A program made the position numbers and the translations under genes. Shown one piece after another: positions 9,644-60,341 of a stretch of DNA of 64,000 nucleotides (positions are counted from its first letter, which is position 1; every line of letters starts with the position of its first letter). Source of the DNA: Seramator thermalis (lineage in GTDB: Bacteria > Bacteroidota > Bacteroidia > Bacteroidales > Dysgonomonadaceae); assembly GCF_004138125.1 (NCBI RefSeq), contig NZ_RXHS01000002.1, forward strand, positions 1-64,000. The letters are read 5' to 3'. The notes under the pieces are model-generated. The model was not told the DNA's origin and searched no databases. It saw only the letters and a list, made by a program, of their open reading frames with translations.

Positions 9644-9671
9644 TGCATTTTTTAGAATGGATCGAATAAAT

Positions 9672-11570: not shown

Positions 11571-11964
11571 GTATAATGTATTGAATTCTCTGTATGGTTT
11601 AGTATAATAAATTATATGACAATTATCTACGGAATGTGATGTTTGGTGGAACTCAAATTAACAAACCTGAATAAATAAACTTAATTATAAAATGTGATGA
11701 ATAAAAAATAAACAAGAACAGTAGAATGTTCGAATACGTTTTTGAAGATTCTACCACAAAGGTAATATTTTTTTAAATATCAATACGCGCAGAATGATTT
11801 TTTTTGGATTTTGCCTGTAAAAATCTTTTCAGAAAATGATATTTTGCAAAACCGAACGTTTTTTCCTTTTCGATCATACTACAGCAATAGCAAAAAACAG
11901 TATTCCGGTTGTTGGGTTAATTGTATCGAAATTTTTTCTTGTTTATTGACTACGGTACGATAAA
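11571..11964. other. Noncoding region upstream of rho
   Basis: This 394-nt AT-rich gap separates rho from the DUF6340 gene, both on the minus strand. It holds a candidate promoter at 11757-11764. The implied rho leader of about 180 nt is long enough for autoregulation. No open frame or stable hairpin is evident otherwise. Confidence 0.5.
11757..11764 (-). promoter_or_regulatory. Candidate -7 box for rho
   Basis: The minus strand reads TACCTTTG, a perfect TAnnTTTG match. A TTG lies 16 nt upstream, a shorter spacing than the usual 19-21. Confidence 0.35.
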
Positions 11965-33006: not shown

Positions 33007-33120
33007 CCCAAATTTATAATTAAGCTCGTACGATATAGATATCAAGGCATAAGAGCAATTGTCGCAAGGTTTCGCGAGGAAATTATCATTATCATCGAAC
33101 CAGACTTGTTTAGAACTAAA

Positions 33121-33159
33121 AAAGCTTCAAGAAGCCATTATGTAACCCCTTGAAGCTTT
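33121..33159. terminator. Inverted repeat (possible terminator) left of the island
   Basis: AAAGCTTCAAG (33121-33131) pairs with CTTGAAGCTTT (33149-33159) over an 18-nt loop. No T-run follows on the plus strand; on the minus strand the sequence continues into TTTTTTAG. It may terminate leftward transcription or mark a boundary. Confidence 0.45.
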
Positions 33160-33234
33160 GCGGTATGGACGGGAAAGCCACCTTTGTAAGATAATCTGCT
33201 TTCTTTCAGCATCTTACTCCCTCATTTTTTCTTA

Positions 33235-33409
33235 GGGGGTACAGTTTAGGTTAGGAACTCCTAACTAACTGTATTTAAGTGCTTCCACCACTGTATTTCC
33301 AAACTTCCTATTTTGGCAGTCAGACTAATTTTGAATTAAATTTGTCAGACCACTAATATTCAGTGTTTTATTATTTCAAAGACCTTTATGGGGGTACAAA
33401 TTAGGTTAG
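33235..33409. repeat. Imperfect 20-bp direct repeat pair (candidate recombinase sites)
   Basis: GGGGGTACAGTTTAGGTTAG (33235-33254) and GGGGGTACAAATTAGGTTAG (33390-33409) differ at two positions and are 155 nt apart, centre to centre. They may be arm-type sites or att remnants of the element. No further copy was found by eye to the right. Confidence 0.5.
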
Positions 33410-33539: not shown

Positions 33540-33586
33540 GGTGCAAGGTGCAAGATATCTATATAGATATACTTGCACCTTGCACC
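33540..33586. repeat. 15-bp perfect inverted repeat with palindromic centre
   Basis: GGTGCAAGGTGCAAG (33540-33554) and CTTGCACCTTGCACC (33572-33586) flank the palindrome ATATCTATATAGATAT plus one extra A. Each arm is itself a tandem repeat of GGTGCAA. It lies 114 nt before the XRE gene and upstream of its promoter box, so it may be an operator or a hairpin. Confidence 0.7.
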
Positions 33587-33699: not shown

Positions 33700-33912
33700 A
33701 TGACCGATAAAAAAGTAATCAATAGAATTAAGGTTGTTTTAGCGGAGAACGATAGAACAAATCGCTGGCTTGCCGAAGCAATAGGAAAGAATGAAGCAAC
33801 TGTTTCAAGATGGTGTTCCAATAAGGCGCAGCCCTCTATTGACGTTTTTCGTCAGATTGCAGAAGCTTTGGATGTGGATGTTCGAGAGTTACTTCATACA
33901 ACTAAAAAGTAG
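33700..33912 (+). CDS. XRE-family HTH regulator
   Basis: A 70-residue Cro/C1-type repressor with five helices: RIKVVLAENDRTNRWLAEAIGKNEATVSRWCSN carries the helix-turn-helix (residues about 20-42), and VFRQIAEALDVDVRELL completes the fold. It starts 15 nt upstream of the helicase gene, so it is the first gene of the defence operon. Regulators of this type often delay restriction until methylation is established (controller-type logic). Whether it does so here is inference. Candidate operators are the inverted repeats at 33540-33586. Confidence 0.85.
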   Translation: MTDKKVINRIKVVLAENDRTNRWLAEAIGKNEATVSRWCSNKAQPSIDVFRQIAEALDVDVRELLHTTKK

Positions 33913-33927
33913 CAAGCAACCAAGCGT

Positions 33928-36900
33928 ATGGAAATATTAGATAACAAACAGGGCCGAACAGTTGAGCATGAGATAGCTAAACGGTTAGATTCAAACACTT
34001 CGGTGTCTGTCAGTACCGGAATGTTTAGCATCTATGCCTTTTATCTTTTGCGGGAAAAAATGAAACACACAAAAGGATTAAAAATCCTGCTTTTATCAAA
34101 CCCGCAAACAAAAAATCCTCAAGGGGTATCCATTGCCTTGGATAATACTTTTTGGGGAACCGCCGAAGAGGGAGGACTGAAAAGGCAACTCTTACTACGA
34201 TATGCAGCAGAAGAATGTACCCACATACTTGAAAGAAGTCGTATTCGTGCTTTGAGAGTTCCTAATTCATTCGGATTTAAGTTAATATTTATCCAAAATG
34301 AGCACGATAGCTGTGTAATCAATCCCGGTATGGCAGACTTCTGTGCAGATTCATTGGGTTTTATCAACTCGGAGAAACCACAGCTACATATTCTTCACAA
34401 CAAAAAAGAAGAGGTGGCGCAATACAAACAAATGTTTGACGGAATATGGTCGGATACTTCCATGTCCAAAGAGATTACAAAACTGGCTTTGGATGAGTTA
34501 AAAAAAGGGTTTAAGGACTACTCTCCCGATGCTGTGTATTACATGATTTTGCATCATCTTTTTCATTATTCCATTGTTGATTTTGCCGACGATAAGATTT
34601 TTAAATCAAGAACCGGATTTAAAGATAAAGAAATTTGGAATAAACTTTACAAGTTCCAGAAAGATGGTGTAATGGGGGCTATCGAGAAAATTGAAAAATA
34701 TGGCGGTTGTATTATTGCCGATAGTGTGGGGCTCGGAAAAACATTCGAAGCACTTGCCGTTATCAAATATTACGAATTGCGAAATGACCGTGTATTGGTA
34801 CTTTGCCCCAAGAAGTTGCGTGACAACTGGACAGTTTATACGCAAAACGACAAGCGCAACATTCTGATTAACGACCGTTTCAATTACGATGTGCTTAGCC
34901 ATACTGATTTAACTCGTGTGCGGGGTAAATCGGGGGATATTGACTTGGCGACAATTAATTGGTCAAATTATGATTTGGTCGTAATAGACGAATCGCATAA
35001 CTTCAGAAACAGCTATCCCTCTAAAGGCGAAATGACCCGTTATGCCCGCATGATGAATGAAGTCATCAAAAAGGGTGTAAAAACAAAACTGTTGATGCTT
35101 TCGGCGACACCGGTGAACAACCGGATGAATGATCTCAAAAACCAAATATCGTTTATCACGGAAGGCGACGACAGCGTGTTCGAAGAAGAGGGCATAGATA
35201 ATATATCCAACGTAATGAAGCTGGCGCAGCGGCAGTTTTCCGATTGGGCAAAATATTCGGATCGGAATATAAACGAGTTGTTCGACCGGTTGGATAATCG
35301 TTATTTCAAACTATTGGACATGCTTACTATCGCCCGTTCACGCAAGCATATCGTGAAATATTACGATTCGGCGGATGTGGGAAGGTTTCCGACCCGTTTG
35401 AGACCGATAAACGAGAAAACCGATATCGACAGTCAGCGATTATTTCCATCTTTAAGAAACATCAACAATGCTATTCGGAAGCTGAATCTGGCAAATTACT
35501 CGCCCGTATCTTCACTGAAAGAGGAGAAAAAAGCGGAATATGCGGCAAAATATGACTATCAGTTAAGTACGGGAAGTGTTTTTACGCAGTCCGACCGGGA
35601 AAAGAATCTGGTTGACCTTATGCGGGTGAATTACTTGAAGCGGATGGAGAGTTCCATCTATTCTTTTTATTTGAGTGTAAAAGCCCTATTAGAACAAGTC
35701 AATCAGAATTTATACAAGATAGAACATATAGCCGAATTGTCGGATAAATCCATTACCATAGACAGCATTGATTTAGAAGAGGATGAAAGTGACTACCTGA
35801 TTGGTAACAAGGTAAAAGTATTGCTTCAAGATATTGATTTGGTAAAATGGCGACAAGAGTTGGAATACGACCGCGATACACTTACAAAGCTAATGGAGAG
35901 TGCCGCCACCATATCGGCTGCTCGTGATGAAAAACTGACACGACTGAAAGAGGTCATCGCCCGCAAAATAGAAAACCCGATCAACGAAGACAATAAAAAA
36001 GTCATTGTTTTTACCGCTTTTGCGGATACGGCTACCTATCTTTATCAAGAATTGTCAGAATGGATATTGGATGAATATGGCTTATTTACCGCTTTGATAA
36101 AAGGAAGCGGGACAAATAAGACAAACTTCCCCGATATAGAAAGGAAAGAGATGAACGAACTGCTTACGCATTTCTCGCCTTATTCAAAAGAGCGTGATAA
36201 AACCTATCCGAATGTCAAAAGAGAAATAGACCTGCTCATTGCTACCGATTGCATTTCGGAAGGGCAAAACCTGCAAGATTGTGACTATTTGGTAAACTAT
36301 GATATCCATTGGAATCCGGTGCGTATCATTCAACGTTTCGGTCGTATCGACCGCTTAGGCTCCAAGAATGAACAGATCCAGTTAGTCAATTTCTGGCCGA
36401 ATATGGAGCTGAATGAATATATCAACTTAGAGAGCCGGGTGAAAGGGAAGATGGTCTTACTCGACATTTCCGCTACCGGAGAGGAGAATCTCATAGAGAT
36501 GAACGAAAACGACGAAATGACCGATTTGGAATATCGTCGCAAGCAGTTGGAGCAACTCCAAAGTACAGTACTCGATTTGGAAGACATTCAAGGTGGAATA
36601 ACCATTACGGATACCAATATGAACGATTTCCGAATGGATATTATGGAATACGAAAAAAAACACCTTGCTGATTTGCAGGATATTCCGTTGGGCATCCATA
36701 CCGTGGTCGAAACAGACGATGAAGAGATACCTCCCGGAACTATTTTCTGTATGCGTAGCTCTGTACAACAAAAAGGGCAAAGCCTGTTGGCTCCTTATTA
36801 TTTGGTTTATATGGGCGAAGGTGGAGAACCTGTTTTGGGCTATATGCAGGGAAAACGTTGTTTGGATTATCTGAAAAAACTGTGTCAGGGCAAAACGGAA

Positions 36901-37128
36901 GTACTGGCAGAGTTGGCGCAAAACCTAAAAAAAGAGACAAAGAACTATGCCAATATGAAAGCCTATTCGTCCGCTTTTCAGTTAGCCATTGAGAGTGTCA
37001 TCGGTAAATCGCAAGAGGTAGGTGCTGCTTCGTTTTTCTCTACAGAGTTAGTTTCGCTCAATGCCGAAGGGGTTACCTCACAAAGCGATTTTGATATTGT
37101 GGCATTTGTTGTTGTCAAGCGGAAATAA
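33928..37128 (+). CDS. SNF2-type helicase of the defence operon
   Basis: A superfamily 2 ATPase of 1066 residues. The N-terminal ~210 residues (RLDSNTSVSVSTGMFSIYAF) resemble the PLD-like or sensor domain of related helicases, but no HxK(x)4D catalytic motif is visible. The motor begins near 255: Walker A DSVGLGKTFEA near 266, DESH near 353, SATP near 392, motif V with SEGQNLQDCD near 778, and motif VI QRFGRIDRLG near 801. It is not a HsdR-like subunit, since no PD-(D/E)XK motif is seen. DISARM and related systems use SNF2 proteins of this sort with a methylase. A role in translocating on or sensing foreign DNA is inferred. It is followed at 56 nt by the AbiEi-like gene. Confidence 0.85.
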   Translation: MEILDNKQGRTVEHEIAKRLDSNTSVSVSTGMFSIYAFYLLREKMKHTKGLKILLLSNPQTKNPQGVSIALDNTFWGTAEEGGLKRQLLLRYAAEECTHILERSRIRALRVPNSFGFKLIFIQNEHDSCVINPGMADFCADSLGFINSEKPQLHILHNKKEEVAQYKQMFDGIWSDTSMSKEITKLALDELKKGFKDYSPDAVYYMILHHLFHYSIVDFADDKIFKSRTGFKDKEIWNKLYKFQKDGVMGAIEKIEKYGGCIIADSVGLGKTFEALAVIKYYELRNDRVLVLCPKKLRDNWTVYTQNDKRNILINDRFNYDVLSHTDLTRVRGKSGDIDLATINWSNYDLVVIDESHNFRNSYPSKGEMTRYARMMNEVIKKGVKTKLLMLSATPVNNRMNDLKNQISFITEGDDSVFEEEGIDNISNVMKLAQRQFSDWAKYSDRNINELFDRLDNRYFKLLDMLTIARSRKHIVKYYDSADVGRFPTRLRPINEKTDIDSQRLFPSLRNINNAIRKLNLANYSPVSSLKEEKKAEYAAKYDYQLSTGSVFTQSDREKNLVDLMRVNYLKRMESSIYSFYLSVKALLEQVNQNLYKIEHIAELSDKSITIDSIDLEEDESDYLIGNKVKVLLQDIDLVKWRQELEYDRDTLTKLMESAATISAARDEKLTRLKEVIARKIENPINEDNKKVIVFTAFADTATYLYQELSEWILDEYGLFTALIKGSGTNKTNFPDIERKEMNELLTHFSPYSKERDKTYPNVKREIDLLIATDCISEGQNLQDCDYLVNYDIHWNPVRIIQRFGRIDRLGSKNEQIQLVNFWPNMELNEYINLESRVKGKMVLLDISATGEENLIEMNENDEMTDLEYRRKQLEQLQSTVLDLEDIQGGITITDTNMNDFRMDIMEYEKKHLADLQDIPLGIHTVVETDDEEIPPGTIFCMRSSVQQKGQSLLAPYYLVYMGEGGEPVLGYMQGKRCLDYLKKLCQGKTEVLAELAQNLKKETKNYANMKAYSSAFQLAIESVIGKSQEVGAASFFSTELVSLNAEGVTSQSDFDIVAFVVVKRK

Positions 37129-37141
37129 TTCTTTATCTTTG
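37105..37141 (+). promoter_or_regulatory. Promoter before the AbiEi-like antitoxin gene
   Basis: TATCTTTG (37134-37141) matches TAnnTTTG. TTTG/TTG elements at 37105-37114 lie 19-25 nt upstream. It overlaps the end of the helicase gene and places the start site inside the inverted repeat at 37141-37167. Confidence 0.55.
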
Positions 37142-37167
37142 TCCGAAATCTACCGAATATTTCGGAC
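37141..37167. promoter_or_regulatory. Inverted-repeat operator for the AbiE-like module
   Basis: GTCCGAAAT (37141-37149) and ATTTCGGAC (37159-37167) form a perfect 9-bp inverted repeat with a 9-nt spacer. It covers the predicted transcription start and ends 17 nt before the antitoxin ATG. AbiEi antitoxins bind inverted repeats to repress their own promoter, so this fits an autoregulatory operator. Confidence 0.6.
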
Positions 37168-37184
37168 AATATTATTGGGGTTTA

Positions 37185-37805
37185 ATGATGGAAGAGAATA
37201 TTTCACAAAAAGTTAGAGATCGAGTAACTCGCTTTAAGAAAGGCGATTTGTTCACTGTGCGTGATTTTGAAGATTTAAATAATGATAGCCTTGTTACCCG
37301 AACGTTATCCCGTCTGCAAAATGAAGGCATCATTGTTCGTGTGGCAACCGGCATCTATATGAATCCCATAAAAACGCAATTTGGTGTTCTGCACCCTACG
37401 ATTGACCAAATTGCCCACAAAATAGCCGAACGAGACAGGGCTCAGATTATGCCAACCGGTGATACTGCCTTAAATATTTTGGGCTTTTCTACTCAAGTAC
37501 CGATGAACGCCGTATATATTACCAACGGAGCTAAGCGAAAAGTGCAAGTTGGCGAAAGAAATATTATTTTCAAAAATGTTGTTCAGAAAAACTTTCAATT
37601 CAAGGGTAAGCTTCTGCCATTGATAATTATTGCACTAAAAGAACTTGGAGAAAATCAGGTAACGGACGAAATAAAGGACAAAATAAGTAAGCTTCTTTCG
37701 GAGAGTGATGCCGAAGAGCGAGCAACAATGATGCACGATTTATACCTGTCGCCGGTATGGATGAAAGAATTGCTATTACCAATCATAAAAACAGTAACAG
37801 AATGA
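37185..37805 (+). CDS. DUF6088 / AbiEi-like antitoxin
   Basis: A 206-residue type IV antitoxin-like protein. The N-terminal winged helix (about 1-60, GDLFTVRDFEDL...VTRTLSRLQNEGIIVRV) is for DNA binding. The rest (AERDRAQIMPTGDTALNILG and GAKRKVQVGERNIIF) matches DUF6088 proteins, which are often encoded beside AbiEii toxins. Its stop overlaps the toxin start (ATGA at 37802-37805), a hallmark of coupled translation. It has its own promoter and operator. In AbiE systems the antitoxin represses the operon and counters the toxin without stable binding. That behaviour is known for the family and inferred here. Confidence 0.85.
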   Translation: MMEENISQKVRDRVTRFKKGDLFTVRDFEDLNNDSLVTRTLSRLQNEGIIVRVATGIYMNPIKTQFGVLHPTIDQIAHKIAERDRAQIMPTGDTALNILGFSTQVPMNAVYITNGAKRKVQVGERNIIFKNVVQKNFQFKGKLLPLIIIALKELGENQVTDEIKDKISKLLSESDAEERATMMHDLYLSPVWMKELLLPIIKTVTE

Positions 37806-38794
37806 GTATTTGGCTGAATTATAGCGAAGATGAAAAAATGGTTTTGCTACAACAAACAGCAGTGGCCAGAAAAATTTCAGCAGAACAGGCAATTGAAAAG
37901 GATTGGTGGGTAACGGCCATTTTGGTAGCATTGTCAAAATCTTCGTGGGCGGATTTTCTGCAATTCAAAGGAGGAACTTCGCTCAGCAAAGCGTGGGGAT
38001 TGATTAGTCGCTTCAGTGAAGATATAGATTTGACTATAAGTCGTTCGTTTTTCGATCTACCTGAAGAAACCAATCAGCAACGAACAAAAATTCGCCGAGA
38101 AGCTTTCCATTACATAGAAGAGAAGTTGCTCCCCGAGTTAGATAGCATACTTTCTTCAGAAGGAATAACAGGTTATAAAGTTGAGCTTGTTACAAAAAAC
38201 AGTAGCGATATGGTAACTTTAGTAGAAGTAAAATACAAAAGTATTCTTCCGACTAAAATAGATTACCTCCTTCCGGTTGTCAAGATTGAGTTCAGTGCCA
38301 TGTCTCTTGACGAGCCGTTTGAAAATCGAGAAATTGCAACGCTTATCCATTCCCGGTTTCCTGAAATTGATAGCGAAATAAAGTCACTTTTTAAGTCTGT
38401 ATTGCCTGAACGCACCTTTTTGGAAAAAATATTCTTGTTGCACGAGGAGTATCAAAAGGAAAATCCACGCACGGATAGGATGTCAAGACATTTATACGAT
38501 TTGGAAAAGATGATGGATAGCTCTTTCGCTCAATCAGCGTTGCAAGATACGGACTTATACAAAGCCGTTGTCAATCATCGTCAAAAGTTCAACAGCATAA
38601 AGGATGTTGACTATACAACACACGAACCTGCTCAGATCCGGATTTGTCCTCCCGACCACTTGATGGGGAGTTGGAGAAAAGATTACGAAAACATGAAAGA
38701 GAGTTTCATTTATGATAAAGACAAAAAAACATTCGATAAACTTATCGAGAGGATGGAAGAGCTTACCGACAGGATAAGAAAAATCAACCTATAA
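37802..38794 (+). CDS. AbiEii/AbiGii-family nucleotidyltransferase toxin
   Basis: A 330-residue nucleotidyltransferase-fold toxin. I start it at the ATG at 37802, which overlaps the antitoxin stop; an upstream ATG at 37757 is in frame but inside the antitoxin gene. The catalytic motif is complete: FKGGTSLSKAWGLISRFSEDIDL (GG-T/S near 57, D-x-D near 74). Enzymes of this family add nucleotides to tRNA acceptor ends or other targets and cause growth arrest. The stop overlaps the DUF4391 start (TAATG at 38792-38796). That tight linkage inside a restriction operon is unusual. Confidence 0.88.
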   Translation: MSIWLNYSEDEKMVLLQQTAVARKISAEQAIEKDWWVTAILVALSKSSWADFLQFKGGTSLSKAWGLISRFSEDIDLTISRSFFDLPEETNQQRTKIRREAFHYIEEKLLPELDSILSSEGITGYKVELVTKNSSDMVTLVEVKYKSILPTKIDYLLPVVKIEFSAMSLDEPFENREIATLIHSRFPEIDSEIKSLFKSVLPERTFLEKIFLLHEEYQKENPRTDRMSRHLYDLEKMMDSSFAQSALQDTDLYKAVVNHRQKFNSIKDVDYTTHEPAQIRICPPDHLMGSWRKDYENMKESFIYDKDKKTFDKLIERMEELTDRIRKINL

Positions 38795-39537
38795 TGATAG
38801 AGTACTTCAACATACCGTCTGGGGCATTAATCAATACGCCTATCAGCAAAAAACTTTTTGCCGAGAAAGCGCCTTTGTCTGCTGGGGAAAAACGGTTGTT
38901 GCGTGAAGAGATAGAAAAGCTCACGATGAAAGGTTTATTGCAGACCCGCACCATTGGATTGGCTGCATACATGGATGATGAACAGGCTTACGACCAAATC
39001 ATCATTGCCGAAGCAAGTATCAAGAATCCGGCTAAAGCGATGCCGGTAGCTACCTTGGTACAGAAAGCCTTTCCTGCTCCGATGTTTTTAGTTATTCATT
39101 GCGACGAAAGTTTTTCTGTGAATTGGTGCGTAAAACGAATCAATCAGGCGGATAAAACAAGGCGGGTGATGGAAGAACAACAAATAACCCGTTTCTTTGT
39201 ACCTGAAGGCGACGATAGCATTATTCGTGCTTGGTTGCCTTCGTTAGATATAGCACGCATCCGCTGTAATTCACTGAAAGAACTATTCGAAGCCTTGGCA
39301 AACCGCCTGTTGATGCTGGCAGTTTCCGACGAGGCAGGTATCTATCTCGAAAGCGACAGGCAGAAAACAGAGCAATACCGTGTCTTGCTGGAACAGTTAA
39401 ATACCAACCGCATGGAACAAAAACGAATAACCGCTGAAGTAAAAGCGGAAACGCAATTCAACCTCCGTTTAAAGCTGACAACAAAACTGAAAGAGTTACA
39501 ACAACAAGAAAAAATATTGAAAAATCAATTGATATAG
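38794..39537 (+). CDS. DUF4391 protein between toxin and Mod genes
   Basis: A 247-residue protein of the DUF4391 family, of unknown function, typically encoded next to type III-like modification genes. The globular part (about 1-190) contains TIGLAAYMDDEQAYDQIIIA and LVIHCDESFSVNWCVKRIN. The last ~50 residues (EQLNTNRMEQKRITAEVK and following) form a coiled coil suited to bind a partner. It overlaps the toxin stop and ends 2 nt before the Mod start, so its level is locked to both. It may be an assembly factor for Mod-Res or a link to the helicase; neither is demonstrated. Confidence 0.8.
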   Translation: MIEYFNIPSGALINTPISKKLFAEKAPLSAGEKRLLREEIEKLTMKGLLQTRTIGLAAYMDDEQAYDQIIIAEASIKNPAKAMPVATLVQKAFPAPMFLVIHCDESFSVNWCVKRINQADKTRRVMEEQQITRFFVPEGDDSIIRAWLPSLDIARIRCNSLKELFEALANRLLMLAVSDEAGIYLESDRQKTEQYRVLLEQLNTNRMEQKRITAEVKAETQFNLRLKLTTKLKELQQQEKILKNQLI

Positions 39538-39539
39538 CT

Positions 39540-41480
39540 ATGCAAAAGACAAACATACCGCAAGCCGAGAGCAAAAGTGCCGACTTGGTGGCACAAAATC
39601 TGGAGCAACTGAAACAGATTTTGCCTGAAGTGATAAAAGAAGGTCGTGTGGACTTTGAAGCACTAAATGACCTGTTGGGCAACTATGGCGACACCGCCGA
39701 AGAGCGTTTCTGTCTCAACTGGGCAGGCAAAGCCAACGCACGGCGTGAAGCACAAAAGCGAAGCACGGGAACACTCCGCCCTTGCCCCGAAGAGAGTGTG
39801 GATTGGGATACGACCGATAATCTCTACATTGAGGGCGACAACTTGGAGGTGTTGAAACTTTTGCAAAAGAGCTACCACAGCCGTGTTAAGATGATCTACA
39901 TTGACCCGCCCTACAACACCGGGAAGGACTTCGTGTATAAGGATAACTATGCGGATAACATGAAGAACTATCTGGAGCTGACGGGGCAGGACAAAAAACT
40001 CTCCACCAATACCGAAAGTGACGGGCGCTACCATTCCAACTGGCTGAATATGATGTATCCGAGACTGAAACTTGCTCGCAACCTGTTGACGGATGATGGG
40101 GTGATATTTATTTCGATTGATGATAATGAGGTGGCAAATTTACGGAAAGTTTGTGATGAGATTTTTGGGGAGGAGAATTTTGTGGCACAACTTGTTTGGA
40201 CTAATAAAGAAGGAGGAGGAAGCTCTGATAGCAAATTATTTAGGTTAAAACACGAATATATATTATGTTATTGTAAACAGATAGAACTTGTAGAGGTCAT
40301 AGGATTGCCTGTTGGAAATGAAGACAGGTATAAATCTGAAGATGAATATGTTTCTATTAGAGGGAAGTATTATTTGCAGAAAATGGGCATGGGGTCTATA
40401 CAATACTCTGAATCATTAGATTATCCTATAAAAGCTCCTGATGGAACATTAATAAATCCAATAGATAATAACAATGGGCGAAAAGCTTGTTGGAGATGGT
40501 CAAAGCCTAAATATGATTGGGGAGTAGAAAATGGTTTCATTGTTATAAAGAAAGACAGGGATGGTATCTGGACTGTATATTCTAAACAATATTTGAACTG
40601 CGATAATGAAGGAAATATTATATCAAGGACACAAAGACCAATGGGAGTTATTGATGAATTTTCCAGTACTCAAGGAGCCAAGTTATTGTATAATTTAGGA
40701 TTAGGGGATTACTTTGATTATTCAAAACCAAAAGAACTAATGGAATATTTAATAAATCGATTATCCAACAAAGACTCTCTCATTCTCGACTTCTTCTCCG
40801 GCTCTGCTACCACCGCCCATGCAGTGATGCAACTCAACGCCGAAGATGGAGGTAACCGCAAATACATCTGTGTACAAATACCCGAACCTACGCCTGAAGA
40901 TAGCGAAGCTCGCAAAGCTGGATATACCACCATTCCCGAAATAGCCAAGGAGCGTATCCGCCGTGCAGGTAAAAAAATAATGGAAGAGCAAAAAGCAAAA
41001 GCCGAAAAAGAAGGCGGACTATTTGCTGAAGAAGAGAAGAAATTAGACATCGGTTTCAAAGTATTTAAACTCGACAGCTCAAATATTAATGCTTGGGATA
41101 GCGATCCCGAAAATCTGGAAGCAAGCCTGAGCAACTCGCTGTTTAATATCAAAATAGATAGAAGTGAAGATGATCTGTTGTATGAGATACTGATCAAATA
41201 CGGCATTGAGTTGACCGAAAAGATTAATCGTCACACCATAGATGGAAAAACCGTGTATGAAATGGGTGCCGGTTCGTTGATTGTCTGCTTGGCAGAAAGC
41301 CTATCCACGGCAGTTGCCGACGGTATCGGTAAACTCTACAAAGAGGTAAGCCCCGAAGGAGTGGATGCCAATTGCCGTGTGGTATTCAAAGAAGCCGGGT
41401 TTAATGGTTCGGACGAAGTGAAAACCAATACGCTGCTGATCTTGAAACAGCACGGCATTACGAATGTGGCAACCGTTTAA
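39540..41480 (+). CDS. Type III DNA methyltransferase (Mod)
   Basis: An N6-adenine methyltransferase of beta order, the specificity and modification subunit of type III restriction. At 646 residues it is a typical Mod. The DPPYNTGKDF catalytic motif (DPPY near 122) precedes the AdoMet motif LDFFSGSATTAHAV (near 415), as in beta MTases. The target recognition domain lies between them, about residues 195-410. That stretch (about 40,130-40,785) is clearly more AT-rich than the flanks, pointing to recombinational exchange of specificity. It begins 2 nt after the DUF4391 gene and is followed at 14 nt by Res. Confidence 0.93.
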   Translation: MQKTNIPQAESKSADLVAQNLEQLKQILPEVIKEGRVDFEALNDLLGNYGDTAEERFCLNWAGKANARREAQKRSTGTLRPCPEESVDWDTTDNLYIEGDNLEVLKLLQKSYHSRVKMIYIDPPYNTGKDFVYKDNYADNMKNYLELTGQDKKLSTNTESDGRYHSNWLNMMYPRLKLARNLLTDDGVIFISIDDNEVANLRKVCDEIFGEENFVAQLVWTNKEGGGSSDSKLFRLKHEYILCYCKQIELVEVIGLPVGNEDRYKSEDEYVSIRGKYYLQKMGMGSIQYSESLDYPIKAPDGTLINPIDNNNGRKACWRWSKPKYDWGVENGFIVIKKDRDGIWTVYSKQYLNCDNEGNIISRTQRPMGVIDEFSSTQGAKLLYNLGLGDYFDYSKPKELMEYLINRLSNKDSLILDFFSGSATTAHAVMQLNAEDGGNRKYICVQIPEPTPEDSEARKAGYTTIPEIAKERIRRAGKKIMEEQKAKAEKEGGLFAEEEKKLDIGFKVFKLDSSNINAWDSDPENLEASLSNSLFNIKIDRSEDDLLYEILIKYGIELTEKINRHTIDGKTVYEMGAGSLIVCLAESLSTAVADGIGKLYKEVSPEGVDANCRVVFKEAGFNGSDEVKTNTLLILKQHGITNVATV

Positions 41481-41494
41481 AGAGAGGACGCAGT

Positions 41495-44400
41495 ATGGCT
41501 AAAAATATGACATTAAAATTCGAGAGTCACCTCGAATATCAGGACGACGCAGTAAATAGTATCTGCGATATATTTGAAGGCGAAGAGATTTTCCAAAGCA
41601 ATTTCTCTATCACGCCCATCAAGGGAGAAGAAAGTTCGCTATGGAAAAGCGCTACTATCGGTATCGGCAACTCTTTAAAAATGATTGAGGAAGATATGCT
41701 TGCCAATATGCAGCGCATCCAATTGCGTAACGGCGTGCCGCAATCGACCGCCGAGAGTTTCAAGAAAGAGGGAATGAACTTCTCCGTAGAAATGGAGACC
41801 GGTACAGGTAAAACCTACGTCTATTTGAAAACGATTTTTGAACTCAATAAGCGTTACGGTTTTACCAAGTTTATCATTGTAGTGCCGAGCATCGCCATCA
41901 AAGAGGGTACATACAAATCCTTACAGATCACCAAAGAGCACTTCAAAAGCGAATACGAGAATGTAGTGTACGATTATTTTGTGTACGATGCCGCCAAATT
42001 AGAGCAAGTACGCTCGTTTGCCACGGGTGACAGTATTCAGATTATGGTGATCAATATTGATGCATTCCGCAAAAGTTTCGAAAGTGAAGATGAAAACAGC
42101 AAGTCAAACATTATCCACCGTTACAACGATAAGTTGGGCTACAAACCCATCGACCTGATTAAAGAAACGAATCCGATAGTGATTATCGACGAACCGCAAA
42201 GTGTGGATAATACCGACAAAGCGAAAGAAGCTATCGCTGCGCTCAATCCGCTCTGCTGTTTGCGCTATTCTGCCACACACCGCACACCTTACAACATGAT
42301 GTATAAGCTCGATTCGGTGGATGCTTACGAACTGAAATTAGTAAAACAGATTGAAGTGGCGACTGCTACTGTGGAAGGTTTCCAAAACGATGCGTATATC
42401 GACCTGATAAAAGTGGACAATAAAGCCGGAATTAAAGCACAGGTAGAATTGGATTTTCAAAACAAAGGAAAAGTTAACCGCAAGAAAACGTGGGTAAAGC
42501 AAGGACAGGATTTATTTGATATCACCAAGCGCGAGCAATACGAAGGGTATATCGTGGAAGATATTTGGTACGATGGCGAACGCTGGAATATGTCGTTTAC
42601 AAGCAATGATAAGATTATAGAACAAGGCGTTGTGTCGGGGAGTTTGAGTGACGACCTGCTGAAACGAGAGCAAATACGCATGACCATCGAGGCGCATCTT
42701 GACAAAGAAATAGTGCTCAATCCGCAAGGAATAAAAGTGCTGAGCCTGTTCTTTATCGACAAAGTCGCCAACTACCGGGAGTACGATGCTGAAGGGAATC
42801 GCCAAAACGGGAAGTATGCCCGTATTTTTGAAGAAGAATATAACAACCTGATACAGAAACCGAAATACCGTTCTTTATTTAATGAAATGAAGGACAAGGA
42901 TGTGGATGTTAGCCAGATCCACGATGGATATTTCTCGGTGGATAAGAAAGGGAAAGCCTCGAACAATAAAGATAAATTTGAAGTTTTTGTAGACACCTCC
43001 GGGAAAACGGCTAAAGACGATGATGCGTTCAATCTGATTATGCGCGATAAGGAACGACTGCTGAGCTTCGAAACGCCACTCCGCTTTATTTTCTCCCACT
43101 CCGCCTTGCGTGAGGGTTGGGACAATCCGAATGTGTTCCAAATCTGTACGCTTAACGAAACAACCAAAGAGATAAAGAAACGGCAAGAGATTGGGCGGGG
43201 ACTTCGTTTGTGTGTCAATCAGGACGGCGAACGGGTAAAAGGTTTTGACGTAAACACACTTACTGTGATGGCAAACGAAAGCTATGAAGAGTTCGCCAAA
43301 GCGTTGCAGAATGAAATAGAGGAAGATACCGGAATTAAGTTCGGTTACCTGCATAAACATTCTTTCGCCCGTATTGAAGTAGGTGCGGATCAGGACAAAG
43401 CGATGTATCTGAACGAAGAAAAATCGGTTCGACTTTACGACTATTTCGTGGAGAAAGGCTATGTCAGAGAAGAAGTTGTCAACAAGAAAACCAAAGAGAT
43501 TGCCGCTAAAGTGCAGGAAAAACTGAAAATAGACTTGCGCGACAATCGGGTAGCTATTCCCGAAGAATTTGACTATATTAAAACACCGATTCTGAAAGTA
43601 TTGAAGCGTATCAGCGGAAACTTTATGAATATCAAAAACCGGGACGATGTGCGTCGGGTAACATTCAAGAAAGAGTTTTTTATCAATAACGAAGATTTCA
43701 AGAATCTATGGGATCGGATAAAATACAAAACGACGTACTCCGTAAAAATTGATTCGGACAAATTGATCGATCAATGCGCTCAACGGATATACGAAGAGGT
43801 GGTGGTAGGCAAAGGACGCTTTGTTACCCGCAAAATAAAATTAGCGATTACCGAAGGGGGCGTTCTGGAGGGAGAAGATTCTCCTCGTGAATCGACACGG
43901 ATTATGGACGATACGGTTTCGATACTGCCGGATATTGTTACTTACCTGCAAAACGAGACCGGACTGACCCGTCAATCCATCGTTTCCATCTTGATTGGGA
44001 GCAAACGCCTGGAAGCGTTTAAGAAAAATCCTCAAGCCTTTATCGAATCGGTTATTGATATCATTCGTAACGAGATGCGCCTCTTATTGGTTGATGGCAT
44101 CAAATACAAGCGGATAGATAAGGATATGTGGTGTCAGGAACTGTTTGAAAACAAAGAGCTGCAAGGTTATCTAAGCAGCAACTTACTGGAAAGTAACAAA
44201 TCACCCTACGATTATGTGATTTATGATTCGGAAACAGAGCGCAGTATGGCACAACGATTTGAAAGCTCCGATAATGTTAAGGTGTTTACCAAACTACCCT
44301 CCTGGTTTAAGATTGATACGCCATTGGGAGCCTATAATCCCGACTGGGCACTTGTTTGGGATGACGGTCACGAGCAGAAACTTTATTTTGTTGTAGAGAC

Positions 44401-44548
44401 TAAGGGCGGTTTGTTTGAAGACGCTATAAAACCAACCGAGAGAGCAAAAATAACCTGTGGCAAGAAACACTTCGCTGCCCTTGAAACCGGAATAAAATTA
44501 GAATTAGCAGATACATTTGATACATTGCAGGGGAAGATCACCTCTTAA
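41495..44548 (+). CDS. Type III restriction subunit (Res)
   Basis: The ATP-dependent helicase-nuclease of the type III system. The 1017 residues contain Walker A METGTGKTYVYLK near 100, the DEAD-box-like IIDEPQSVD near 231, motif VI-like KRQEIGRGLRLCVNQDGE near 565-582, and a C-terminal PD-(D/E)XK site: NPDWALVWDD near 948 and VVETKGG near 967. It forms a complex with Mod and cuts after ATP-driven communication between two head-to-head sites. It is the last gene of the operon. The length and motifs are complete, so it is probably active. Confidence 0.92.
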   Translation: MAKNMTLKFESHLEYQDDAVNSICDIFEGEEIFQSNFSITPIKGEESSLWKSATIGIGNSLKMIEEDMLANMQRIQLRNGVPQSTAESFKKEGMNFSVEMETGTGKTYVYLKTIFELNKRYGFTKFIIVVPSIAIKEGTYKSLQITKEHFKSEYENVVYDYFVYDAAKLEQVRSFATGDSIQIMVINIDAFRKSFESEDENSKSNIIHRYNDKLGYKPIDLIKETNPIVIIDEPQSVDNTDKAKEAIAALNPLCCLRYSATHRTPYNMMYKLDSVDAYELKLVKQIEVATATVEGFQNDAYIDLIKVDNKAGIKAQVELDFQNKGKVNRKKTWVKQGQDLFDITKREQYEGYIVEDIWYDGERWNMSFTSNDKIIEQGVVSGSLSDDLLKREQIRMTIEAHLDKEIVLNPQGIKVLSLFFIDKVANYREYDAEGNRQNGKYARIFEEEYNNLIQKPKYRSLFNEMKDKDVDVSQIHDGYFSVDKKGKASNNKDKFEVFVDTSGKTAKDDDAFNLIMRDKERLLSFETPLRFIFSHSALREGWDNPNVFQICTLNETTKEIKKRQEIGRGLRLCVNQDGERVKGFDVNTLTVMANESYEEFAKALQNEIEEDTGIKFGYLHKHSFARIEVGADQDKAMYLNEEKSVRLYDYFVEKGYVREEVVNKKTKEIAAKVQEKLKIDLRDNRVAIPEEFDYIKTPILKVLKRISGNFMNIKNRDDVRRVTFKKEFFINNEDFKNLWDRIKYKTTYSVKIDSDKLIDQCAQRIYEEVVVGKGRFVTRKIKLAITEGGVLEGEDSPRESTRIMDDTVSILPDIVTYLQNETGLTRQSIVSILIGSKRLEAFKKNPQAFIESVIDIIRNEMRLLLVDGIKYKRIDKDMWCQELFENKELQGYLSSNLLESNKSPYDYVIYDSETERSMAQRFESSDNVKVFTKLPSWFKIDTPLGAYNPDWALVWDDGHEQKLYFVVETKGGLFEDAIKPTERAKITCGKKHFAALETGIKLELADTFDTLQGKITS

Positions 44549-44617
44549 TTGAGGATTATATACAGGCATAAGAAAGACTTTGTATGTCTATCACATAACG
44601 TCTAACATTAAAAAATT

Positions 44618-44851
44618 ATGTCTATGAATGATTTAACAACCAAGGAGTTTTTCAGACTATTGTCTGAACCTTCGCAAGTATCGAACAAAGAAATCCAAAC
44701 TTCGTATGAATCTTTTGTTAAGCAGATTACAGAAACAAGCAACTCAGAGGCAGATTACTCGAAAGTGTTTCGTCTATTGAATCACTCCCGTATCGAGATA
44801 GATTCAATAAAAACATCATCACTTTACGAGTCGGGGGGGGGATATGATTAA
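44618..44851 (+). pseudogene. 5' part of an RteC-like gene, split at a G9 tract
   Basis: A 77-residue frame that ends just after a run of nine Gs (44833-44841). Its last codons read through the G-run and stop at 44849-44851. Removing one G would put this frame in phase with the next gene, giving one protein of about 215 residues, close to the size of RteC regulators. It has no motif of its own (EFFRLLSEPSQVSNKEIQTS). It is either a true frameshift, a phase-variable switch or a sequencing error in the homopolymer. Confidence 0.5.
44833..44841 (+). repeat. G9 homopolymer at the split between two frames
   Basis: Nine consecutive Gs lie two nucleotides before the ATG at 44844. Runs of this length slip during replication and are a common basis of phase variation. 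The frame arithmetic is -1 G (or +2) to fuse the upstream and downstream frames. Confidence 0.8.
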
Positions 44852-45263
44852 GTTTAATTACATCCGAAAGGCTTTGAGCTTTCTACATTCTGAAATGGAA
44901 TTGCTAAAACTAAAGATACAATACCCGGAAAGATTTTCTCTAACAGAAGAACTATCGTTTAAGTCGGAACTCTATGTAATCCCCAAAGCAAAAGGACTGG
45001 GAATTATCGGGTTGGCGGAATTAGTGATGAGTATTTTTCTTTCAAAAGAAATAAAAAACCGAAACGGTAAACCTGCATCTTTGGTGCAATTGGCAAGAGC
45101 TTTTGAATATGTTTTCAATTGCAATTTTGGAAGCATATACGATAAGCAGGCAGAGATTTATAATCGAAAATCTTGTAACCTGACAAAATCATTAGATTTC
45201 CTCAAAGGAAGCTTGGAACGAAGTCGGAAAATCAAGCCTTTGAAACAAAATGAAAAAGAATGA
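44844..45263 (+). CDS. RteC-like C-terminal domain protein
   Basis: A 139-residue protein whose second half resembles the C-terminal domain of RteC, the regulator of excision genes in CTnDOT-type elements: SLVQLARAFEYVFNCNFGSI and RKSCNLTKSLDFLKGSLERS follow the family pattern. The start is 2 nt after the G9 run, which could also serve as a purine-rich leader. It lacks the N-terminal part unless fused to the upstream frame by a slip at the G-run. It precedes the HTH/primase genes, the expected place for an excision regulator. The match is by motif memory, not alignment. Confidence 0.55.
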   Translation: MIKFNYIRKALSFLHSEMELLKLKIQYPERFSLTEELSFKSELYVIPKAKGLGIIGLAELVMSIFLSKEIKNRNGKPASLVQLARAFEYVFNCNFGSIYDKQAEIYNRKSCNLTKSLDFLKGSLERSRKIKPLKQNEKE

Positions 45264-45305
45264 TTTTATAATTAACTGAATTACTTGTAATTATATTCTA
45301 AACTT

Positions 45306-45336
45306 GGGGGAGTAGTTAACTACTCCCCCTGTTTTT
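45306..45336 (+). terminator. Perfect palindromic terminator before the HTH gene
   Basis: A perfect 24-nt palindrome (45306-45329; GGGGGAGTAG arm) is followed by TGTTTTTG. It lies 42 nt after the RteC-like gene and separates it from the excisionase-like gene. Confidence 0.8.
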
Positions 45337-45383
45337 GTATTATTCTTTCCCCGAACTTTGCAGCGAATTAAATAGTTACGAAT

Positions 45384-45743
45384 ATGGATGTCATAACAAT
45401 AGAATCGCAGGCGTATAAAGATTTAGTCACAAAGATTAATGCCATAGCAAAGTTTGTCGTAGATCATCAGGATGATGATACAGTCAACCCTGATGAAATG
45501 TGGGTGGATAGTTACGAAGTTTGCACCTTTCTCAAAATCAGTGAGAGAACACTTCAACGCTTACGAAGCAATCGACTGATCTCATATTCAATCATTTCAG
45601 GAAAATCATATTACACCATTGCGGAAATTAAGCGAATGCTTAATGAGAAGAGAATCCGCAGTACCGAAGAATGTATGAATGACCTCATAAATAATCATAA
45701 ACTATATGCTCAACAAAGACGAACTATTAAGACAGACAAATAA
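45384..45743 (+). CDS. Excisionase-like HTH protein (copy 1)
   Basis: A 119-residue helix-turn-helix protein of the HTH_17/excisionase type. The core reads DSYEVCTFLKISERTLQRLR near 51-70 and SYYTIAEIKRMLNE near 83-96. It is related to the product of 47761-48069 across that core. Proteins of this kind control excision or mobilisation in Bacteroides transposons. Its 3' end overlaps the primase gene start by 38 nt. Confidence 0.8.
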   Translation: MDVITIESQAYKDLVTKINAIAKFVVDHQDDDTVNPDEMWVDSYEVCTFLKISERTLQRLRSNRLISYSIISGKSYYTIAEIKRMLNEKRIRSTEECMNDLINNHKLYAQQRRTIKTDK

Positions 45744-47748
45744 CGGTCTGAATGTATTCAAGCACTATATTTCGGTACAATGGAAAACAGGTCGTAATTT
45801 TCTGAATCCATTGTATGAAGACCGTAAGGCTTCGTGTAATGTGTATTTTGACCGTCGTAACAATATCTATCGCATAAAAGATTTCGGCAATGATAATTAC
45901 AGCGGAGATTGCTTCTTTTTCGTTGGGCAGTTGAAAGGTTTGGATTGCAACAATGGTGCTGACTTCGTTGAAATACTGAAAACCATAAACAGGGATATGT
46001 CTTTAGGATTGGATAGTTCGGACTATGCAACTCATATTCCGCAGTCAGTTCCACAAAAGAATAATTCGACGATCCCGGAACTACCCAAAATCAAACCCTA
46101 TAATATCACACAACAGAAGTTTACTCAAAAGGAACTGGATTTTTGGTTAAGGTCAGGTATCACTCCCGAAATACTGAAACTATACAGAGCCGTATCCCTG
46201 AAAGAGTTTAGAAGCGAAAATAAGGACGGAAAATCGTTCTCTTACACTTCATCGGAGAATGAGCCGCTATTTGGGTACATAGGTAAACGATATGTAAAAA
46301 TCTACCGTCCATTTTCGGAAGTACGTTTCTTGTATGGCGGGAATATCGGAGATAGTTATTGTTTCGGACTGGAACAATTACCCGCCAAAGGAGATACATT
46401 GTTTATTACCGGTGGAGAAAAAGATGTGATGACACTTGCCGCACATGGCTTCCATGCTATCTGTTTCAACAGCGAAACATCGACCATTCCGACAGGAATA
46501 ATCTATAAACTCACTTTCCGATTCAAACATATTGTACTGCTCTATGATGCGGATAAAACAGGAATAGACAGTGCAATGAAGCATGAAAAAGCCTTGTCGG
46601 AGTATGGCGTTAAACGGCTCGTCTTACCATTGTCAGGCGAAAAGACCGACAAGGATATAACCGATTATTTCCGCAAAGGGAATAACCGCAAAGAGCTTCG
46701 ACAACTATTCATCGACTTTCTTGATAACCTATATAATGAAACAATGACCATGCTTAAATCCTGCGAAATTGATTTCAACAATCCTCCGGCAAAAGCTGAA
46801 GAAGTTATATCTGCCGGCGACGTACCTCTGGGAACACAGGGAAACATCCTTTGCATTACGGGCGGGGAAGGTACGGGGAAAAGCAACTATGTTGCCGCCC
46901 TGATTGCAGGTTCAATCATAAAAGACAACCGTACCATTGATACGTTAGGCGTGAATGTCCGTGATAATTCCGACGGCAAGGCGGTTTTGCTTTACGATAC
47001 TGAACAATCCGAAGTACAGCTTTTCAAAAACGTTTCCAATCTTTTGAAACGAGCCAAACTGAACGAAAAACCGGAAGAACTACGGGCTTTCTCCCTTACT
47101 GGAATGTCCCGGAAAGAACGATTGCAAGCCATAGTTCAGAGTATGGACAAATACCATTATGAATACGAGGGCATACGCTTGGTTGTTATCGACGGTATTG
47201 CGGATTTGGTATCATCAGCCAATGATGAAGTAGAAAGCATCCGTATTATGGACGAACTGTATCGTTTGGCGGGAATATACCGTACTTGTATCGTTTGTGT
47301 GCTTCATTATGTGCCAAATGGATTGAAATTAAGAGGGCATCTCGGTTCGGAATTACAGCGAAAAGCTGCTGCTATCCTAAGTATAGAACTCGATTCGGAA
47401 CCGTCGATATCGGTTGTTAAGGCTCTCAAAGTAAGGGACGGAAGCCCTCTCGACGTTCCTTTGATGCAGTTCTCTTGGGATAAGGAACTGGGAATGCACA
47501 TTTATATCGGTGAAAAGCCACGAGAGGAAAAGGAAAAACGGAAAGAAAAAGAGTTGGCGACAGTTGCCCGTGAGATATTTGGCGTACAAAAGCACTTGAC
47601 TTATATCGACCTGTGCGACCGGATTCAGCAGATTATGGATGTAAAAGAGCGTACTGCCAAAAGCTATATCAAGTATATGCGAGAAAAAGAAATAATCATC
47701 AAAGATCCGTCCAGTCAGAATTATTTTATGATAGGGCATATTATATAA
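45706..47748 (+). CDS. Toprim-primase/RecA-like helicase of a mobile element
   Basis: A 680-residue replication-type protein. The N-terminal ~100 residues (KTGRNFLNPLYEDRKASCNV) resemble a primase zinc-binding/CHC2-like region. A Toprim domain follows: ITGGEKDVMTLAAHG near 235 and LLYDADKTGIDS near 280, with the acidic residues needed for metal binding. The C-terminal part is a RepA/DnaB-like ATPase with Walker A CITGGEGTGKSNYVAAL near 383 and VVIDGIADLVSSAND near 494 as Walker B. Such proteins act in plasmid or transposon replication after transfer. It is flanked by related HTH genes on both sides. Confidence 0.85.
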   Translation: MLNKDELLRQTNNGLNVFKHYISVQWKTGRNFLNPLYEDRKASCNVYFDRRNNIYRIKDFGNDNYSGDCFFFVGQLKGLDCNNGADFVEILKTINRDMSLGLDSSDYATHIPQSVPQKNNSTIPELPKIKPYNITQQKFTQKELDFWLRSGITPEILKLYRAVSLKEFRSENKDGKSFSYTSSENEPLFGYIGKRYVKIYRPFSEVRFLYGGNIGDSYCFGLEQLPAKGDTLFITGGEKDVMTLAAHGFHAICFNSETSTIPTGIIYKLTFRFKHIVLLYDADKTGIDSAMKHEKALSEYGVKRLVLPLSGEKTDKDITDYFRKGNNRKELRQLFIDFLDNLYNETMTMLKSCEIDFNNPPAKAEEVISAGDVPLGTQGNILCITGGEGTGKSNYVAALIAGSIIKDNRTIDTLGVNVRDNSDGKAVLLYDTEQSEVQLFKNVSNLLKRAKLNEKPEELRAFSLTGMSRKERLQAIVQSMDKYHYEYEGIRLVVIDGIADLVSSANDEVESIRIMDELYRLAGIYRTCIVCVLHYVPNGLKLRGHLGSELQRKAAAILSIELDSEPSISVVKALKVRDGSPLDVPLMQFSWDKELGMHIYIGEKPREEKEKRKEKELATVAREIFGVQKHLTYIDLCDRIQQIMDVKERTAKSYIKYMREKEIIIKDPSSQNYFMIGHII

Positions 47749-47760
47749 AATTCAACAGTT

Positions 47761-48069
47761 ATGTATATAAGTAAAGAAGATTTTGAAGCCTGGATGGAGC
47801 GAATTATGTATCGATTCGACAAACAAGATAAAACTCTCGATAAAATGAGTAAACACAGGAATATATTAGACGGAGAACTCCTGCTTGATAATCAGGATTT
47901 GTGTATGTTGCTTAATGTCAGCAAACGAACTTTGCAACGGTATCGTGCCACGGGAGAATTGCCGTTTCAAACGCTATATCACAAAACTTATTATAAAGAA
48001 AGTGATGTTCATGCTTTTATTAGAACAAACTTCAACAAAAAAAGGGGAGATAATAACTCTAGCAAGTGA
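47761..48069 (+). CDS. Excisionase-like HTH protein (copy 2)
   Basis: A 102-residue HTH protein, related to the one at 45384-45743: DNQDLCMLLNVSKRTLQRYR corresponds to the HTH of copy 1, and TYYKESDVHAFIRTN to its wing. It begins 12 nt after the primase stop. The two copies probably arose by an old duplication. One may be an excisionase and the other a regulator of the primase gene. Confidence 0.75.
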   Translation: MYISKEDFEAWMERIMYRFDKQDKTLDKMSKHRNILDGELLLDNQDLCMLLNVSKRTLQRYRATGELPFQTLYHKTYYKESDVHAFIRTNFNKKRGDNNSSK

Positions 48070-51934: not shown

Positions 51935-51964
51935 TTATTTTTGTTTACAACCAATGATAGAACT

Positions 51965-60332: not shown

Positions 60333-60341
60333 TCTATCATT

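Follow-up and report, generated by a model that had tools for sequence, protein, structure and literature searches.

A four-gene type III restriction cassette with AbiE as a probable inserted passenger in Seramator thermalis

The stretch of DNA analysed here, referred to as the window, comprises positions 1 to 64,000 of contig NZ_RXHS01000002.1 of Seramator thermalis and harbors at 33700-44548 an operon of seven genes, all on the plus strand, in the order XRE, SNF2, AbiEi/DUF6088, AbiEii, DUF4391, Mod and Res. The operon is real and looks intact. We read it as a mobile variant of a type III restriction-modification (RM) system, made up of SNF2, DUF4391, Mod and Res, into which an autonomous AbiE toxin-antitoxin (TA) pair has been inserted at the junction between SNF2 and DUF4391 (written SNF2|DUF4391, and likewise for other junctions), and we give this reading a probability of about 0.75. 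The core cassette behaves as a cargo platform, and AbiE is one of many swappable passengers. This finding moves the question away from a new hybrid of RM and toxin, and makes SNF2 and DUF4391 candidate subunits, as yet unstudied, of type III restriction.

The recurrent unit is the four genes SNF2-DUF4391-Mod-Res, which were seen in Bacteroidota, Pseudomonadota and other phyla as well as on plasmids. One genome per species was scanned for 84,980 species; of the resulting 166 pattern matches, 40 were confirmed as DUF4391 loci by their similarity to the window protein. A same-strand SNF2 gene is found upstream of DUF4391 in all 40, directly adjoining it in 37, and Mod lies downstream in 39, the exception being L095. 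The helicase, DUF4391, Mod and Res genes also occur without AbiE on plasmids of Acinetobacter, Shewanella, Acetobacter and Providencia (L002-L005; four of five matches were opened, an unannotated Persicobacter record being left out), the Acetobacter Res gene being interrupted by an IS1380 element. A phylum sample of 395 genomes held 35 DUF4391 places in 27 genomes, from which the 20 near-full-length places outside the window were fetched, several of them cut by contig ends, and L116 was added. An order sample of 393 genomes held 23 places in 21 genomes, from which 15 stretches (16 places) were fetched, leaving aside the window, five matches that fall within long frames (four scoring below the cut-off and one slightly above it) and one decayed frame. 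Mapping with profile hidden Markov models thus covered 81 loci: 40 from the species scan, 20 from the phylum, 15 from the order, the four plasmids, L116 and the window. All four core genes are collinear in 55 of these, and 22 of the 55 have nothing in between; in L138 and L140, from the order sample, Mod-Res is placed ahead of SNF2-DUF4391. Because a Res relative (E<=1e-20) is found in 62 of the 393 order genomes and DUF4391 above the cut-off in 16, type III RM of the four-gene kind is in the minority within the order. All core loci were found via DUF4391, so that SNF2-Mod-Res loci lacking it would be missed, and they form a non-random sample in which junction counts retain near-duplicates; grouping at 90% DUF4391 identity reduces 74 junctions to 57 groups and the 55 complete cassettes to 45.

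The AbiE pair is scarce at this junction. It is found at SNF2|DUF4391 in 4 of 74 readable loci, which are the window, Bacteroidaceae bacterium HV4-6-C5C (L056), an uncultured Proteiniphilum (L057) and the metagenome-assembled genome of Bacteroidales bacterium 45-6 (L058). Of 101 genomes searched in the family to which the window belongs, five contain DUF4391: the window, two loci identical to L057 and L058 (L155 and L156, counted once), L157 and L158. With these, AbiE is present at 5 of 76 readable junctions and absent from 71; it is absent from 51 of the 55 complete four-gene cassettes, and it occurs in 1 of the 57 groups (L157 and L158 left out). The DUF4391 proteins of the five carriers are 92-98% identical to that of the window (92% over residues 1-171 for L157) and represent one lineage. 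A preliminary description of this DNA had proposed that restriction and toxin are combined, and had named as contrary evidence a TA pair absent from most homologous loci and inserted in this genome only; the absence from most loci is what was found (71/76), but the carriers amount to at least five records of one lineage and not to the window genome only. The closest relatives without AbiE bear different genes. L059, the next relative (DUF4391 60% identical), has a Septu-like pair (an AAA ATPase and PtuB) and one unknown gene between DUF4391 and Mod, and in L158 (57% identical) DUF4391 is followed by a GajA/OLD-like gene.

The fifth carrier, L157, is a one-contig genome that retains full-length SNF2, AbiEi and AbiEii genes next to a DUF4391 cut at residue 171; the truncated gene and the RHS-repeat gene that overlaps it lie at 8602-11606. 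Mod and Res were not found in the 18.5 kb read at this locus. SNF2 and AbiE thus stay where Mod-Res has gone, and on this ground obligate guarding of the toxin by Mod-Res was rejected. AbiE pairs are also met away from the cassette: AbiEii matches occur in 88 of the 395 phylum-sample genomes, and among the contexts examined (L116 and 19 further loci) those 19, with AbiEii 31-43% identical, are free of core genes over the 6-11 kb inspected; 18 of them lie in other genomes and one is a decayed copy in the window's own genome.

Genes other than AbiE are inserted into the cassette far and wide. Counting as an insert any open frame of at least 85 aa, 33 of the 55 complete cassettes carry inserts (28 of 45 after grouping). 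Over all readable junctions, an insert is present in 8 of 74 for SNF2|DUF4391, 22 of 71 for DUF4391|Mod and 23 of 59 for Mod|Res; the sole inserts of L054 and L149, of 92 and 88 aa, may be spurious. The inserted genes lie within the operon and point the same way, instead of flanking it. The 70 inserted genes fall into 40 clusters, and representatives of 37 of these (not L054 o92, L063 o95 and L149 o88) were scanned with Pfam; PADLOC was applied to 17 cargo proteins (including an L046 pair located past a strand break, which was left uncounted), to the L158 gene and to two genes flanking L157. The families include GmrSD, DUF1016/YhcG nuclease (PADLOC PDC-S02), ORF6N (PDC-S05), 23S IVP, Schlafen/AlbA, RhuM, PDC-M59A, Fic, OLD/AAA_15, PDC-S46, Abi_2, HEC-01A/B, AbiH/DUF4917, Abi_C, HerA, KAP NTPase and SIR2-like proteins, among others. 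Many of these are defence or abortive-infection families, and some, such as DUF4143 and pentapeptide repeats, are not known defences; eight scanned clusters gave no match at all (in Pfam for all eight and in PADLOC for five). Defence genes are thus variably present inside the operon of another defence system, and candidate defence genes are to be sought among the uncharacterised cargo (L079 6017, L080 11070, L083 10755, L084 12699 and L059 12745). Separately, two Pseudoalteromonas cassettes share a 728-aa cargo gene at DUF4391|Mod (L078 10762-12948 and L085 10763-12949), the L078 copy matching PDC-S46 at 877 bits.

In sequence, AbiE has diverged less than most of the cassette around it. The synonymous divergence (dS) between the window and L056 is 0.59 for SNF2 and 0.33 for Res, compared with 0.023 for AbiEi and 0.10 for AbiEii, and that between the window and L058 is 0.76 for SNF2, 0.007 for AbiEi and 0.03 for AbiEii. 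Paired with L056, L057 and L058 in turn, the window shows 94-100% identity over the AbiE block, while SNF2 identity falls to 66-85% over 33900-35300 (L056, L058) and to 78-86% over 35500-36500 (L057). In the same three pairs the AbiEi protein is identical and the AbiEii dN/dS is 0.04-0.11, on few substitutions. AbiE looks like a recent insert with its own promoter and operator.

The pair also looks self-contained, and would act on its own. AbiEi precedes AbiEii in a bicistron, the arrangement of type IV AbiE systems, in which the antitoxin neutralises the toxin without binding it. AbiEi clearly matches DUF6088, its Pfam AbiEi_4 score of 23.0 bits lying below the cut-off of 25. AbiEii contains the motif FKGG-x15-DID (sequence FKGGTSLSKAWGLISRFSEDID), which fits hG[G/S]x15DhD and was given as GGTS...EDID in the preliminary description; at the likely place of motif IV, an assignment of our own, all 18 aligned AbiEii rows have R-H-x-Y-D where the family pattern is +DxxD. 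The SNF2|AbiEi gap of 56 nt, overlooked in that description, holds a promoter-like box matching TAnnTTTG, which we take to be the Bacteroidota -7 box consensus, and an 11-bp inverted repeat that is probably the AbiEi operator. An arm of 11 bp was reached by none of 200 dinucleotide shuffles of the stretch 5' of AbiEi, and both box and dyad are unchanged in L056-L058. The dyad test covered 18 other AbiE loci with enough upstream sequence (L127 being too short): in 13 of them there is a dyad that no more than 3 of 200 shuffles equal, and 12 have the class of the window, with half-sites like GTCn[C/G]AAAT at the same centre-to-centre spacing. A recurrent dyad 5' of DUF6088-AbiEi offers a direct handle on AbiE regulation in Bacteroidota. 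The decayed second pair of the window's own genome (L117, contig C17, 3311-4916), whose AbiEii is broken into two frames, keeps the dyad 5' of AbiEi.

A number of observations count against a recent, autonomous insert. The five carriers, as one lineage, are uninformative on independent gain, and L116, in which a truncated DUF4391 is preceded by a diverged AbiE pair and no SNF2 is seen, may be a second association. DUF4391 is as little diverged as AbiE, at 35500-36700 SNF2 matches that of L056 with 100% identity, and in the two pairs that extend over the 3' end of Res (44100-44600) identity there is 99-100%; because these parts are equally close, the cassette is a mosaic and the recency of AbiE can only be inferred. 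Upstream of AbiEi, 5 of the 18 other loci have no significant dyad and L126 has a different one; TAnnTTTG overlaps the right dyad arm in 10 of the 12 similar loci and neither arm in L117 and L134, whereas the box of the window overlaps the left arm, so that the layouts resemble one another without being identical. The -33 box is weak (GTTG, 19 nt from TATCTTTG), and the strict promoter pattern TTTGN17-23TAnnTTTG, with 6 matches in the window against 3.6 expected, is not matched in the AbiE gap. Finally, the AbiE genes are packed tightly into the operon, with TAATG leading into DUF4391, so that read-through and co-regulation are likely.

This packing bears directly on the alternatives. AbiEi may also control DUF4391-Mod-Res, and the insertion could have placed these genes under an AbiEi-repressed promoter, such that a drop in AbiEi raises toxin and restriction alike. 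The TAATG junction makes regulatory coupling of this kind possible, as an AbiEi-controlled promoter would read into DUF4391-mod-res, the box and dyad lie 5' of AbiEi, and the genes from AbiEi to Res are continuous with gaps of no more than 14 nt. In 51 of 66 insert-free junctions SNF2 and DUF4391 overlap or abut (gap 0 or less; an overlap of 4 nt in 34), which offers no space between the genes for such a promoter. A promoter at the XRE head may nevertheless dominate, and many cassettes bear codirectional cargo, which leaves this alternative tentative and on the doubtful side. In a more elaborate form, a cargo-exchange platform would have been rewired by AbiE, with AbiEi repressing the toxin together with DUF4391, Mod and Res through the internal promoter; we consider this unlikely, but if it holds, toxin and restriction would be switched on at once by whatever phage event reduces AbiEi.

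A coupled system in the sense of the preliminary description, in which restriction status is sensed via SNF2 or DUF4391 and the loss or subversion of restriction frees AbiEii, is highly improbable. It could draw on the close packing of AbiEii with DUF4391 and Mod-Res, and on a published defence island in which the operon of a type I RM system encloses a TA pair and includes a small regulator (DarTG2/RptR, PMC12255303). However, AbiE is missing from 71 of 76 junctions and 51 of 55 cassettes, has a cognate antitoxin and a probable operator of its own, and is retained without Mod-Res in L157, so that the release of AbiEii finds no support; the nearest AbiE-free relatives bear other cargo, the Septu-like pair or the GajA/OLD-like gene. 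A role of SNF2 and DUF4391 as coupling parts is likewise not supported, as the two lie together without AbiE at 71 of the 76 junctions; their presence beside Mod-Res in genomes lacking AbiE there had gone unnoticed in the preliminary description. The other proposal of that description, stabilisation of the operon by the toxin, may hold. At the other extreme, AbiE could be a chance neighbour within a defence island, its effect on the cassette being limited to co-transfer. The many unrelated cargo families at the three junctions would be compatible with this, but inserts lie within the operon and in its direction, not alongside it, and AbiEi and AbiEii are intact with the low dN/dS given above; on balance we hold it to be improbable.

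From the observed gene content, the recurrence of the core, the scarcity and low divergence of AbiE, the box and the dyad, we infer the biochemical and phage-defence steps that follow for the preferred reading, a restriction cassette with an autonomous AbiE insert. Mod would mark host DNA at one asymmetric site, and Res together with Mod would cut unmarked incoming DNA. Marking by Mod and cutting of unmarked DNA by Mod-Res are established for the type III family, in which cleavage needs two inversely oriented unmodified sites. SNF2, as a DNA translocase, and DUF4391, as an adaptor, would assist this restriction. AbiEi would repress the AbiE promoter via the 11-bp inverted repeat and neutralise AbiEii; if AbiEi fell upon infection or loss of the element, the AbiEii nucleotidyltransferase would stop growth, and this arrest could provide both a second line of abortive defence and stabilisation of the element.

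The restriction genes themselves are of type III. Mod has DPPYNTG ahead of DFFxGS, that is, DPPY before the FxGxG-type motif (beta order), with D122-P-P-Y conserved at 98-100% and D417, F418, F419, G421 and S422 at 93-100% in 59 rows, and it matches Mod 6k0w and EcoP15I Mod 4zcf. Res, adjoining Mod, has the SF2 helicase motifs ETGTGKT and DEPQ and a C-terminal PD...ExK, and matches EcoP15I Res (4zcf_C, E=4.2e-67) with the C-terminal stretch included, so that the core motifs previously noted in both proteins are present. Alignments made with blastn to L056, L057 and L058 break at a variable segment of Mod, where identity is 48-57% in the 200-nt windows 40300 and 40500. Because this segment (~40190-40780) differs between similar cassettes, restriction specificity probably changes while AbiE stays.

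SNF2 and DUF4391 are putative helper subunits of the restriction variant, since both accompany Mod-Res with or without AbiE. SNF2 scores 43.1 bits for Pfam SNF2 and 53.6 bits for Helicase_C, and residues 152-1062 match the PADLOC model C3a139 'HKD+Snf2' at 408.7 bits. Its N-terminus is predicted by AF2 to adopt a PLD fold (mean pLDDT 73), and at E<=0.001 Foldseek matched it solely to three restriction enzymes, SauUSI, NgoAVII R and BfiI. The HxKx4D motif is absent from the window protein by sequence and alignment check. A conserved active PLD nuclease was rejected, as HxK tripeptides lie at scattered positions in 23 of 72 SNF2 N-termini and HxKx4D occurs in 3 of 72 rows at three different places, only that of L138 falling close to residue 121 of the window protein, a position at which a PLD motif is conceivable; the modelled domain probably serves in binding rather than cutting in most relatives. 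The distant relative L138, with the gene order Mod-Res-SNF2-DUF4391, has HxKx4D near its residue 129 and may keep an active nuclease site. Membership of DISARM was also rejected: SNF2 scores 136.6 bits for DrmD and, being a helicase, also 77.4 bits for DrmA, the partners of DrmD in DISARM are DrmA/DrmB/DrmC, and the other scanned operon proteins had no Drm model among the matches listed. DUF4391 is predicted by AF2 with high confidence as an alpha/beta domain with a helical hairpin. A Foldseek search with this fold gave no match at E<=0.001, the displayed VIA-align rows span mainly the hairpin (187-247; best Z 8.2), the sole match among PDB sequences was a coiled coil at E=0.39, and the scan of the operon proteins matched it to no PADLOC model. 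A conserved KR...AD segment in the alignment, together with the position between SNF2 and Mod, suggests an adaptor.

Compared with known systems, Mod and Res are homologous to those of EcoP15I in core motifs and PD-ExK end, the window differing in having SNF2, with its PLD-fold N-terminus, and DUF4391 5' of Mod. Published AbiE (Dy et al. 2014, PMC3985639) shares the AbiEi-AbiEii bicistron, GG-x15-DhD and a perfect 11-bp inverted repeat at the promoter; for the published system, binding of AbiEi to such repeats, autoregulation and the stabilisation of mobile elements are on record. The spacer is N27 there and N9 in the window, the likely motif IV is RHLYD here and +DxxD there, and the present pair sits within an RM operon. 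The nearest tested analogue met in the literature searched is DarTG2 (PMC12255303), which likewise sits between RM genes with a small repressor, RptR, at the operon head; that RM is of type I, toxin and regulator are different, and phage defence was measured. The term 'guilt-by-embedding' is cited in PMC12255303 and PMC12988326, and the SNF2-DUF4391-Mod-Res host cassette is not named in the passages concerned.

The AbiE insertion exemplifies a known pattern, in which one defence module is nested in another, and several cargo genes match PADLOC PDC and HEC models, as in embedded defences. Such embedding and the associated 'guilt-by-embedding' are said to have been described by Payne et al. in 2024. 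The PADLOC candidate C3a139 resembles the window SNF2, which keeps the PLD fold but lacks the HKD (HxKx4D) motif. In the literature searched, bioRxiv preprints being outside its scope, we found no description of the four-gene core as a cargo platform and no characterised system with this exact set, as the preliminary description had also stated; DUF4391 appeared in one paper only, as a table row, and searches on type III RM in combination with AbiEii, with SNF2 or with embedding brought up no paper on a platform of this kind (the available part of PMC12707154 being among those covered).

The features of the operon are collected in the table. The claim of seven co-directional genes is borne out by the sequence and by Pfam and PADLOC matches, and each part looks intact, with catalytic motifs in AbiEii, Mod and Res and family matches above curated cut-offs: six of the seven proteins exceeded them in the main Pfam scan and XRE matched HTH_3 separately, while PADLOC gave the labels AbiEi, AbiEii, MTase_III and REase_III. 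The junctions are likewise as first described, namely an ATGA overlap for AbiEi/AbiEii, TAATG for AbiEii/DUF4391, a 2-nt gap for DUF4391/Mod and a 14-nt gap for Mod/Res, provided that AbiEii starts at 37802 and not at the first ATG, 37757. A small XRE gene similar to that of the window precedes SNF2 in L056-L059, L084, L094, L137, L144 and L149.

Table. Genes and sequence features of the operon, in window coordinates
Feature	Coordinates	Strand	Basis
XRE/Cro-type HTH regulator, 70 aa, operon head	33700..33912	+	HTH_3 40 bits
SNF2-family translocase/helicase, 1066 aa, N-terminal PLD fold, without HxKx4D	33928..37128	+	Pfam, PADLOC, alignments, AF2 and Foldseek
Promoter-like box TATCTTTG, match to TAnnTTTG	37134..37141	+	Sequence of SNF2|AbiEi gap; scan 5' of AbiEi
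Perfect 11-bp inverted repeat TTGTCCGAAAT-N9-ATTTCGGACAA, overlapping the box; probable AbiEi operator	37139..37169	.	Sequence
AbiEi-like antitoxin/repressor (DUF6088)	37185..37805 (second ATG 37188)	+	DUF6088 175.8 bits; PADLOC AbiEi 216 bits
AbiEii nucleotidyltransferase toxin	37757..38794 (first ATG; likely start ATG 37802)	+	Pfam 109.6 bits; PADLOC 316.7 bits; GG-x15-DID
DUF4391 protein, 247 aa, alpha/beta domain and C-terminal helical hairpin	38794..39537	+	Pfam 155 bits; AF2 mean pLDDT 93.3
Mod, type III DNA methyltransferase	39540..41480	+	PADLOC MTase_III 708 bits; N6_N4_Mtase 129.8 bits
Mod variable segment, taken as target-recognition region	40190..40780	+	Swapped between otherwise similar cassettes
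Res, type III restriction subunit (helicase and PD-ExK)	41495..44548	+	PADLOC REase_III 1058 bits; RE_endonuc 122.9 bits

The sequence around the operon suggests an integrative mobile element with its left end near 33157. Element ends in the form of simple repeats were rejected, as no exact repeat of 14-24 nt on either strand was found between 33051-33400 and the rest of the window. A 15-bp perfect inverted repeat, GGTGCAAGGTGCAAG, lies at 33540-33586, 5' of XRE, and may be a regulatory or integration site. Directly 3' of Res, 44844-48069 encodes an RteC-like regulator, two HTH_17 proteins and a Toprim/AAA replication-type protein, and the stretch 3' of Res is common to L056 and L057 up to ~48045, after which it diverges. 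A type IIG-like restriction-methylase (PADLOC 161 bits) follows at 48165-51272, with an AT-rich stretch at 50000-52000 (29-31% GC), and next to it lie a 221-aa gene of unknown kind and, at 51941-52996, the gene of a RES-domain protein; this region may be another defence cluster carried by the same element. Further along, at 59481-61502, a tyrosine recombinase gene is followed directly by an IS91-type Y2 transposase.

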